Shown piece after piece: positions 3,989 through 53,275 of a DNA stretch of 64,000 bases. How positions within the stretch are numbered: position 1 is the stretch's first letter; every line of letters starts with the position of its first letter. The stretch covers positions 1-64,000 of the forward strand of contig NZ_BCRT01000010.1 in assembly GCF_001552735.1 (NCBI RefSeq), in the 5' to 3' direction. The notes beneath the pieces were generated by a model that worked only from the letters and a program-made list of their open reading frames with translations, searched no databases and had not been told where the DNA came from. The stretch comes from Sanguibacter suarezii NBRC 16159. Lineage in GTDB: Bacteria; Actinomycetota; Actinomycetes; Actinomycetales; Cellulomonadaceae. A program made the translations under genes and the position numbers.

Positions 3989-5395
3989 CTACCGGTCCTT
4001 GCCACGGGCGTAGTCGTCGAGGGTGACGGCACGCTCGTGGGCGTGGTCGACCATCCGCTCGGGGTAGCCCGGGGGCGGTGCGGGGAGCTTCCACGGCTCG
4101 TGCACCGCCCGACCGGGCACCTCCCGCAGCTCAGGGACCCAGCGGCGCACGTAGTCGCCGTCGGGGTCGAAGCGCAGCCCTTGCGCCACCGGGTTGAAGA
4201 TCCGGAAGTACGGTGCGGCGTCGTGCCCGGTGCCGGCCACCCACTGCCAGTTGAGCTGGTTCTGGGACACGTCCGCGTCGAGCAGGTGGTCCATGAAGTG
4301 CTGCGCCCCGCGCTGCCACGGCAGGTGCAGGTCTTTCACCAGGAAGGACGCCACGACCATCCGGGTGCGGCCGTGCATCCAGCCTTCGGCGAGGAGCTGA
4401 CGCATGCCGGCGTCGACCATCGGGTAGCCCGTGCGGCCCTGGGCCCACCGGGTGAACCACTCCTGCGCGAGCGGCTCGGGGGTCCAGGAGTCGTCCGGCA
4501 GCACCGGGCGCAGCGAGGACCGGGCCGCCGACGGCGCGTGGAAGAGCACGTCTGCGTGGAACTCTCGCCACGCCAGCTCCGAGCGGTAGGAGGCGGCTCC
4601 CACGCCGGGCCGTTCGGCGAGGTCCGCCAGGAGGGTCCGAGGATGGATCTCGCCCCACTTGAGCGCGGTCGAGAGCCGGGAGGTCAGGTCCAGGTCGGGG
4701 CGGTCCCGGTCGCTGTCGTAGCTGTCCACCCGCTCGAGGAACTCCTGCCAGCGGGCGAGCGCTGCCTGCTCCCCGGCGGCGTCCGCAGTCTCGGAGCCGT
4801 CGTTGCCGGCCGTGGGGTCGTCCGGCAGCGCGTCAGAGCCGAGGTCGAGCCAGCGCACCCCCTGCGGCCGGGGCGCCGGGCGCCGCCACCCGTGAGCCAG
4901 CCACGCGGACCGGAACGGGGTGAACACCTTGTAGGGGTTCCCCGCCTGGGTCACGACGCGGCCGGGGGAGACCGCGTAGGGCGAGCCGAGGGGCACGAAG
5001 CGGGCACCGGCGTCGTGCAGGGCGTGGGCGGTGCGGGCGTCTCGCCAGCGGCCGTAGGGCTCGAAGGACTCGGAGACGTGCACCTCGGCCACCTCGATCT
5101 CACGGACCAGGCGAGGCACGACGACGGTCGGGTCGCCCGTGCGCACCACGAGGGCACCGCCCATGCTCGCCGAGAGCGCGGCGAGGCTGGCGCGCAGGTG
5201 ACGGCGACGCGGGGGACCGGCGGCCTCCCAGAGCGCCGGGTCGAGCACGTACAGCCCGACGACGTCTGCACCCCCGCCGGCCCTGCCGCCAGTGCCGCCA
5301 GTGCCCCCAGTGCCGCCCGAGGAGCCGGCTGCGGCAGCCAGGGCGGGGTTGTCCGCCAGGCGAAGGTCGCGGCGGAACCAGTGCAGCGCGGTCAT
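3989..5395 (-). CDS. phr: Deoxyribodipyrimidine photolyase (cryptochrome/photolyase family)
   Basis: A 468-residue FAD-dependent photolyase for light-driven repair of UV pyrimidine dimers. The N-terminal antenna domain begins with [17 protein letters not shown]. The FAD-binding C-terminal domain contains W-R-E-F, G[14 protein letters not shown], W-M-H-G-R-T-R-M and N-W-Q-W-V-A-G-T-G. Near residues 25-40 there is a low-complexity Gly/Thr run encoded by a 9-bp microsatellite, possibly length-variable. On the minus strand TAGGGT (5402-5407) lies 6 nt before the ATG, suggesting a leaderless message. Confidence 0.95.
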
Positions 5396-16764: not shown

Positions 16765-17080
16765 CCCCATCCCTCCACCCTCGCCCGCCCACCCCCTCGA
16801 CCCCGCCCCCGTGTACCCGTCCCCCCCGCGAACTCGTGAGCGGGCCCGACTTACGCCCACCCACGAACTCGTGAGTCATCTCGCGAACTCGTGACCGAGC
16901 CCGCGAACTCGTGAGCCACCCGCCTGTGCGGTGCCCAGAACCCGTCTGGCTCACGAGTTCGGGGAAGGGTTCACGAGTTCGGGGTGGGGGCGGGCGGCGG
17001 AGCGAGGGGTGGGGAGCGGGAGGTCGGGCGGAGAGGGCTCCGGAGGGGAGCGTCGGATGGGGATGGCGCTGGCGCCCGGG
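16765..17080. other. Gene-free stretch after ilvE containing the palindromic repeat element
   Basis: I see no coding region here. The stretch is C-rich then G-rich and holds the GAACTCGTGA repeat element described separately. Confidence 0.7.
16830..16980. repeat. Intergenic repeat cluster A (GAACTCGTGA element, copy 1)
   Basis: The 10-mer GAACTCGTGA is present on the plus strand at 16830, 16865, 16885 and 16905, and inverted (TCACGAGTTC) at 16951 and 16971. The core unit 16885-16980 is 96 bp with start-to-start spacing forward-20-forward-46-reverse-20-reverse. Exactly this spacing recurs twice in the cluster near 52.7-53.0 kb. The inner arms GAACTCGTGAGCC/GGCTCACGAGTTC form a 13-bp inverted repeat. 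The 36-nt core matches the other copies best when reverse-complemented, so this copy is in the opposite orientation. Confidence 0.9.
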
Positions 17081-17081
17081 G

Positions 17082-17109
17082 GTGTGTCATGATGTGTGAC
17101 ATGACACAC
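17082..17109. promoter_or_regulatory. Inverted repeat overlapping the cimA leader promoter and start
   Basis: GTGTGTCAT (17082-17090) and ATGACACAC (17101-17109) are perfect 9-bp arms around a 10-bp spacer, with a nested TGTGT-N6-ACACA. CATGAT (17088-17093) would be the -10 box, ending 7 nt before the leader ATG. A repressor bound here would block initiation directly. No -35 box is convincing. Confidence 0.5.
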
Positions 17110-17139
17110 ACCGTCGCCTCTGCGCTCATTATCGTGTAG
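17101..17139 (+). CDS. cimA leader peptide (attenuation sensor)
   Basis: A 12-codon ORF, M-T-H-T-V-A-S-A-L-I-I-V, ending with Leu-Ile-Ile-Val codons directly before the TAG stop. In-frame ATGs at 17089 and 17092 could extend it. A hairpin (17139-17148 with 17157-17166) begins at the stop codon, and a T-tailed terminator follows. The pattern matches branched-chain amino acid attenuation and fits a citramalate synthase, the entry to isoleucine, downstream. Confidence 0.7.
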   Translation: MTHTVASALIIV

Positions 17140-17167
17140 CGCGCCCGGTCAGTTCGCCGGACGCGCA

Positions 17168-17194
17168 AACCTCCCGTACCCGGGGGGTTTTTTT
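17168..17194 (+). terminator. cimA attenuator terminator
   Basis: A 9-bp stem (17168-17176 with 17181-17189, one G-U pair) with a 4-nt loop and a run of seven T (17188-17194). It lies 29 nt after the leader-peptide stop and about 195 bp before cimA. Confidence 0.75.
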
Positions 17195-17389
17195 GTTGCC
17201 CGGCACACCCCAGCCGGAGCGGCAGCGCAGACGGCGAGGCTGGTCACAGTCACCCAGGACCCCGTGAGTTTCTTGTGGTGGACGCCAACGCCGTCGTCCG
17301 GCGGCGTCGAGCACAATGCTGTGGGGAGCTGTTCGGCCTGCTCAGGCCGTGTCCGTCCCGCCCAGAACTACCGAGAGAAGAGCAGTCGA

Positions 17390-52576: not shown

Positions 52577-53275
52577 TCTTGTGTCCCCACCGGACCCGCC
52601 GCCACAGGTCCCCGCCCCCGGCCGCCCCGAGTGCCACACATCACACTCCCGCCACCCCTCGCCCCCTCCCTCCCGCCCCCTGCCCCCGCCCAACTCGTGA
52701 CCCGCTCGCCGAACTCGTGAGCCATCCGCCGAACTCGTGAGCCAGGGCAGTTCTCGGGGCCGTGAGCCGGGCTGACTCACGAGTTCGCGAGGTGGCTCAC
52801 GAGGTGGAGGGCTCGGTGATGAGCTTGCGGGGATCAGCCCGGCGCGCCCAACCTGCATCCAGCCCCGAATCGCGCCGTGGCGACCCGTGAGCTGGTGGGT
52901 CGCCCGCCGAACTCGTGAATCACCTGCCGAACTCGTGAGCCAGGGGCGTTTCAGGGGCTGTTGGCGGGCCTGGCTCACGAGTTCGCGGGGTGGTTCACGA
53001 GTTCGTGGGGAGAGGTGGGCGTGGGGTGGTTCACGAGTTCGCGGGGTGGTTCACGAGTTCGTGGGGAGAGGTGGGCGTGGGGCGTCGGGCGCGGGGGAGT
53101 GGTGGCGGCGGAGACTGCGGCGGGGAAGTCTCCTGGGGGCATCCATGGGGTGCTCCCAGGGGGAATGGCGACGGGGCGTGCTGGGGACCGGGGCGGGGTG
53201 TCCCGCCTGGGGTCTTCAGCACGCCCCGTGGGGTGGCGCGGTGGGTTCGGCCTCGAGGGCCGGGCCGGTGGTGGA
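52577..53275. other. Gene-free region between tRNA terminator and ltbR
   Basis: No coding region is supported. It contains repeat cluster B (described separately), with C-rich sequence before it and G-rich, low-complexity sequence after it. Confidence 0.7.
52691..53060. repeat. Intergenic repeat cluster B (GAACTCGTGA element, copies 2 and 3)
   Basis: Two 96-bp units lie at 52711-52806 and 52909-53004. Each has GAACTCGTGA twice 20 bp apart, then TCACGAGTTC twice 20 bp apart, with 46 bp between the inner starts, as in cluster A. The last inverted copy of the first unit is degenerate (TCACGAGGTG), and a variant forward copy precedes it at 52691. In the second unit the inner arms extend to 15 bp (52929-52943 with 52970-52984). 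The 36-nt cores begin GCCAGGG in both. Further inverted copies at 53031 and 53051 arise from a 56-bp tandem duplication. Confidence 0.9.

Follow-up and report, generated by a model that had tools for sequence, protein, structure and literature searches.

Palindromic arrays of a repeated word in Sanguibacter and their association with a nuclease-like gene

Palindromic units in the window and their spread

The stretch of DNA analyzed here (64,000 nucleotides, positions 1 to 64,000 of contig C10, referred to as the window) belongs to the 3.8-Mb draft genome of Sanguibacter suarezii (G000). It carries three palindromic units, at two sites, built from forward and inverted copies of the 10-nucleotide word GAACTCGTGA. 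Each unit was also recovered by a scan that is blind to the identity of the word. The features are the following:

16830..16839, + strand: extra forward word, exact
16865..16874, + strand: another exact forward copy, which precedes unit 1 by 20 bp and forms the third word of its left arm
16885..16980, no strand assigned: unit 1, a forward pair and an inverted pair of the word with spacing 20/46/20
52691..52700, + strand: single-mismatch forward copy, which precedes unit 2 by 20 bp
52711..52806, no strand assigned: unit 2, in which three words are exact and the outer right one is degenerate
52909..53004, no strand assigned: unit 3, four exact words with spacing 20/46/20
53031..53060, − strand: two more exact inverted words (starts at 53031 and 53051) behind unit 3

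The exact copies of GAACTCGTGA that the initial annotation had placed at 16885 and 16905 (forward) and at 16951 and 16971 (inverted), together with the forward extras at 16830 and 16865, were all borne out. Its claim that the other two units repeat this geometry identically holds for 52909-53004 but not for 52711-52806, in which the outer right word reads TCACGAGGTG, with two changes. Allowing up to one mismatch, the window contains 22 matches to GAACTCGTGA, against a mean of 4.3 in shuffled sequences (none of 100 shuffles reached 22), and the word-blind scan, which found three units in the window, found none in ca. 1 Mb of block-shuffled DNA. A search of the window with Rfam 15 returned two tRNAs above the gathering score and nothing else, leaving the units unmatched; within Rfam and the open-license PMC literature, the earlier statement that no known repeat family fits them still stands. 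At 17080-17200 of the window, before cimA, a leader-peptide-like stretch is followed by a GC-rich hairpin and a T run, an arrangement also present in Sanguibacter gelidistatuariae ISLP-3 (G005) and in the genome G003; from its sequence, it looks like a candidate attenuator of a branched-chain pathway gene.

Further copies, the absence of which had been named as counting against the element, are present throughout the genome of S. suarezii, with 35 exact tandem pairs (word-N5-15-word) and 89 exact copies of the 11-mer CGAACTCGTGA, nearly all of them within arrays. S. gelidistatuariae has 38 such tandem pairs, and none were detected in the remaining 57 of the 59 genomes searched. Exact inverted word pairs occurred in two of six Sanguibacter genomes, and a search for the exact inverted pair (gap of 34 to 38) across 84,980 species retrieved S. 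gelidistatuariae alone, from a collection that may omit S. suarezii itself. The exact Sanguibacter word pair was absent from viral contigs, in which there was one two-word match, without an inverted partner. Confinement to a chromosomal macrodomain was considered and rejected, with 19 of 28 positions in the origin-proximal half in G003 coordinates (P = 0.087), a count for which the positions of the 52-kb pair and of locus L046 were assumed and that of L050 was taken from a weak match.

Arrays made of other words were found in relatives. Searching the taxonomic family (221 genomes) with a sequence model gave weak matches, and a degenerate tandem pattern brought out outlier genomes, chiefly of genus g20. 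The arrays of these relatives consist of the words CGAGGTCGTCA and CGAACTCGTCG, with a 19-bp period and an inner spacing of 19 or 39. The spacing of two helical turns proposed in the initial annotation is only approximate, since the period is 20 bp in the window units and 19 bp in those of related genomes. Among 396 genomes sampled evenly from the order, G000, G088, and G106 were the only array-rich ones, and three others had one match each; single arrays were seen by eye at L216 to L218, one of them in another family. Applied to loci chosen for arrays, the word-blind scan gave 20 hits in G000, 19 in G005, 16 in G106, and 22 in G088 (a few of them double-counted), compared with none in 195 kb of G003, none in 180 kb of G004, and a single match in 200 kb of G133.

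Several of these arrays had particularities of their own. Three loci of G106 (L223, L229, and L240) carry a second subfamily, CGAGGTCGTCGG, with an inner spacing of 39, alongside 19-spaced CGAGGTCGTCA arrays in the same genome. Many units of G088 (L241 to L260) have in common an oriented core, CGCAGGAC or its complement, with about five linker bases varying, and at position 1953 of L258 in the same genome there is a separate 19-bp tandem/inverted repeat of another word, GGGAGTCCGC. The lone array of L216 (G501, the other family) lies directly 3' of a gene whose end appears cimA-like by eye.

Anatomy and gene context of the units

Unit anatomy was studied in 46 units, 24 from S. suarezii and 22 from S. 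gelidistatuariae. The inner spacing was 46 in 20 of the 24 S. suarezii units (of the remainder, three had 36 and one had 45), whereas every one of the 22 S. gelidistatuariae units had 45. Words were nearly invariant across units, while linkers and cores were variable. In seven orthologous unit pairs, the agreement at variable columns was 0.52, versus 0.49 for other pairs (P ca. 0.10). Because orthologous pairs agree hardly better than nonorthologous ones, the linkers appear to be near saturation even at loci common to both species, with the words conserved. Linker identity within units was lower than under permutation, the share of permutations reaching the observed value being 0.998 for S. 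suarezii and 0.955 for S. gelidistatuariae.

Covariation in the arms, proposed in the initial annotation as a check, was not found. Pairing did not rise above permutation (in 43 units, 479 of 500 shuffles paired as well or better), and RNAalifold applied to 35 units gave a two-sided change in none of 17 predicted pairs. No covarying stem, as would be expected of a structured RNA or an intrinsic terminator, was detected in the units tested. Of the two kinds of selection suggested earlier, on a structure or on protein binding, the evidence argues for recognition of the word (words kept, linkers near saturation, and a genome-wide 1-bp difference in inner spacing between the two species) and does not support a paired structure in these units. 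The conserved words, their fixed phase, and the unpaired extra words would favor recognition by a protein, most simply by the protein whose gene is bracketed by arrays (see below). That old copies have kept their words suggests that the words still serve a purpose, possibly at the 3' ends of genes, or that conversion renews them. Intact words together with near-saturated linkers do not look like the plain decay of a mobile element, and this counts against a mobile-element reading. The Sanguibacter units also have a C-rich left flank and a G-rich right flank, whichever the gene context, a pattern absent from 12 array-free convergent gaps and from 32 units of genus g20.

Genes in the unit loci were called with a simple codon-usage caller trained on four genes of the window. 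By these calls, the contexts of the 46 Sanguibacter units were convergent in 27 cases, tandem in 17, and divergent in 2. The bias toward intergenic positions between convergent genes, which the initial annotation had proposed to look for, was pronounced: when the gaps of 60 bp or more in the fetched loci were compared, 27 of the 43 with a unit were convergent versus 9 of the 93 without (P = 2.6e-10), and 2 of 43 versus 38 of 93 were divergent (P = 4.9e-6). In tandem contexts, 11 of 14 units were closer to the 3' end of the preceding gene than to the next start. At 40 loci of G106 and G088 picked for arrays, 19 of the 39 array calls were in convergent contexts, 12 in tandem ones, and 3 in divergent ones, with the remaining 5 in other settings (one of these five, at position 455 of L229, is probably no array). 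The neighbors were varied housekeeping genes (19 of 41 flanking proteins were scanned), and the idea of a regulon was discarded.

The arrays could be platforms for a DNA-binding protein unrelated to the nuclease, acting as a roadblock, an insulator, or a nucleoid protein at 3' ends, with the nuclease merely using or sharing the sites. Such a role would agree with words conserved at a fixed phase, unpaired extra words, and arms without covariation, as well as with the strong convergent-gap bias and with varied housekeeping neighbors that form no single regulon. However, it leaves unexplained why each nuclease-like gene is bracketed by its own word, also in other orders, and we regard it as unlikely. 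A main role in RNA, as bidirectional terminators or as hairpins that stabilize 3' ends, would account for the location behind genes and for words that pair as 10-bp stems, and at several loci the orthologous gap in G003 carries a classical hairpin. Against it stand the absence of covariation and the fact that hairpin function needs no common word across loci. Moreover, other hairpins persist outside the array in 22 of 47 array-bearing convergent gaps versus 32 of 49 array-free ones, with no clear replacement, although these counts are not decisive as to terminator replacement by arrays. We consider this main role quite improbable; termination may be a host-side effect of the arrays.

A nuclease-like gene between arrays

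The word-blind scan also turned up in S. suarezii a near-perfect palindrome of the 19-bp type. This sister palindrome is present in four copies at 97 to 100% identity in S. suarezii, and four similar, mutually nearly identical copies exist in S. gelidistatuariae. In each genome, two of the four flank one gene, and the two genes are orthologous. The encoded proteins are 72% identical, match AbiEi profiles, and have a weak match to a restriction endonuclease (REase) family. No target-site duplication was evident by eye in the flanks of the eight young sister copies.

A tblastn search over 1.32 Mb of fetched loci gave seven AbiEi/DUF559-like nuclease homologs, and all seven were bracketed by arrays of a locus-specific word, a rate that is biased, since the fetched family loci had mostly been chosen for arrays. 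Six have four-word arrays: GAACTCGTGA units in S. suarezii and in S. gelidistatuariae, sister palindromes in each of these two genomes, and one case apiece in G147 and G101. The seventh (L063/L338, in S. suarezii) is flanked on either side by a different type of word, TGCGTGACTTT, with up to two mismatches. The S. suarezii copy with the window's own word is located on contig C21, flanked by units near 288,136 and 289,324. In G003, this module is missing, and only 120 bp, containing a hairpin, separate the genes that flank it; the G003 locus is an empty site for the C21 module. Because a nuclease-like gene at another place in this genome is enclosed by GAACTCGTGA arrays, we group the window units with mobile palindromic repeats rather than treating them as a stand-alone element. 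Among three loci fetched for having two close array sites, a homolog was found in L318 (sites 1.2 kb apart) and none in L319 (1.5 kb) or L320 (3.9 kb). In L319 (G117), the two arrays are made of CGAACTCGTC and surround a 1,284-nucleotide open reading frame (ORF) that is no nuclease homolog.

Twelve additional loci (L340 to L351) were collected by protein similarity only, one each from Nonomuraea, Collinsella, and a phage scaffold, three from Arthrobacter, and six from Tsukamurella, the latter all from one strain; gene borders in the unannotated records are approximate. A repeat of at least 15 nucleotides common to both 500-bp flanks was present in 8 of these 12, versus none of 301 control windows from the same loci, and none of 16 neighboring genes had a shared flank repeat longer than 12 nucleotides. 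The other four fell below the 15-nucleotide test: in L343, both flanks carry palindromes that look related by eye, and L340, L344, and L350 were negative. In the GC-rich DNA of G003 and G004, 9 of 560 random window pairs also reached 15 nucleotides. The longest shared repeat was used as the test instead of an ORF control, which was uninformative in array-rich loci (40 of 155 ORFs shared at least three 11-mers). Counting the bracketing copies, one Tsukamurella bracket palindrome was found at 11 places in 9 records and a second at 19 places in 8 records; both were confined to one strain and occurred in no other organism of the collection. The Arthrobacter bracket palindrome occurred at three places within its own record. 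Among viral contigs, none of 178 pattern matches was confirmed as a nuclease relative.

The bracketed protein has a length of ca. 310 amino acids. PADLOC AbiEi profiles matched six of six full-length family proteins (best E value, 4e-12), indicating an AbiEi-like region. The best match to MTES_1575 REase had an E value of 7e-6, and the REase/DUF559 matches of the six family proteins were all under the Pfam cutoffs; the Tsukamurella homologs L342 and L348 pass the DUF559 cutoff. At an E value of 0.01, four of seven homologs from named records had no Pfam match. The invariant columns of the putative nuclease include D, E-x-D-G, K-Y, and E-K-R-R, which may form a PD-(D/E)XK center. AbiEi is a binder of inverted repeats. 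A predicted fold of one nuclease homolog reached a pLDDT of only 34, and the PDB gave no sequence match and a lone, meaningless profile match (E value, 0.49).

Relation to known repeat systems

Enterobacterial BIMEs are built of palindromic units that alternate in orientation and stand at the 3' ends of genes. The Sanguibacter arrays share these features but differ from them in sequence and geometry, and no RAYT was found. The system presented here resembles REPtrons (REP plus RAYT) in that short palindromes are scattered downstream of genes and in the gaps between them, copies of the palindrome flank a gene, the families are species specific, and mobility is inferred. The two differ in that RAYT is a Y1 HUH transposase associated with a GTAG tag, whereas here there is an AbiEi/DUF559-like gene and no GTAG, and the Sanguibacter units are inverted arrays of a 10- to 12-nucleotide word with a 19- to 20-bp period. 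The arrangement of REPtrons, a gene bracketed by a dispersed palindrome, thus recurs here with another enzyme, and two of the three bracket palindromes tested were dispersed beyond the bracketing record. As for REPs, the Sanguibacter units lie downstream of genes and between convergent or unidirectional ORFs, but a palindrome of 20 to 40 bp with an unpaired GTAG or CGTC tag was not found, the unit being ca. 96 bp with four 10-nucleotide words. That they are classical REP/BIME elements spread by a RAYT transposase would fit palindromic copies dispersed at gene 3' ends and bracketing a gene; yet Y1_Tnp (PF01797) was detected in none of 18 genomes, array-rich ones included (the control was positive in 5 of 14 known genomes), and neither GTAG nor CGTC occurs in GAACTCGTGA, making this reading very improbable.

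A similarly faint chance is given to a dialect resembling DNA uptake sequences (DUS), with inverted pairs serving as terminators. The word is indeed short and species specific, forms inverted pairs, and is located behind genes, but tandem 19- to 20-bp arrays are not known as a feature of DUS. Only 89 exact copies exist, nearly all within arrays, whereas known DUS number hundreds or thousands. Palindromes that are dispersed without a RAYT have so far had no known partner. CGTC-tagged REPs are described as 20- to 40-bp intergenic palindromes with a CGTC tag, often between convergent or unidirectional ORFs, and as lacking such a partner (Di Nocera 2013, PMC3733652). They resemble the Sanguibacter arrays as dispersed intergenic palindromes without a dedicated transposase, but the arrays are longer and have a bracketed candidate partner (PMC3733652). 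MITEs, too, are small, nonautonomous palindromes derived from an element that in its complete form encodes an enzyme; here, however, there is no target-site duplication evident by eye, and the enzyme is not a known transposase. Finally, AbiEi antitoxins and Vsr/DUF559 nucleases correspond to the AbiEi-like N-terminal and MTES_1575/DUF559-like C-terminal regions of the bracketed protein, which differs in joining both and in being flanked by a locus-specific repeat.

Palindromic arrays accompanied by a nuclease-like gene hint at a mobile-repeat system with an enzyme unlike the known ones. The window units are, in our judgment, probably dispersed noncoding copies of a REPtron-like mobile element served by the nuclease-like protein. 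A complete copy would consist of a word array, the AbiEi/DUF559-like nuclease gene (ca. 310 amino acids), and a second word array. The AbiEi-like N-terminal part may bind the repeated word, and the C-terminal REase-like part may cut or process the palindrome, with new copies then arising at other intergenic positions, chiefly close downstream of genes. Words and inner spacing would persist in old copies if they were still required by the protein or by some host function at the 3' ends of genes, while linkers would drift. Binding, cutting, mobilization, and a gene-end function of the arrays are thus steps that we infer. More tentatively, and with somewhat greater doubt than belief, these could represent a new class of mobile palindromes, in which an AbiEi-DUF559-type nuclease would recognize the word of its own flanking arrays and seed them genome wide at gene ends, with word and spacing specific to each lineage and a spread across Actinomycetota (Sanguibacter and relatives, Arthrobacter, Tsukamurella, and Collinsella). 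No prior report of the nuclease-array link was found in the open-license PMC literature. If the association is true, the flanks of an uncharacterized nuclease family reveal its DNA target, which opens its specificity, cutting, and mobility to direct testing. Strict words, free linkers, and a genome-wide 1-bp difference in spacing would also be a natural experiment on how the rules of multisite recognition evolve.

Two observations concern individual young copies of the sister palindrome. At L311, the copy at 4199 differs from that at 2837 in both arms, and the changes are complementary (GGTGC/GCACC to GGGGC/GCCCC), as though one arm had been corrected against the other. At L313, two young S. 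gelidistatuariae copies (ca. 2873 and 10145) seem by eye to occupy the loop of an older inverted repeat, a placement that gives a hint of hairpin targeting.
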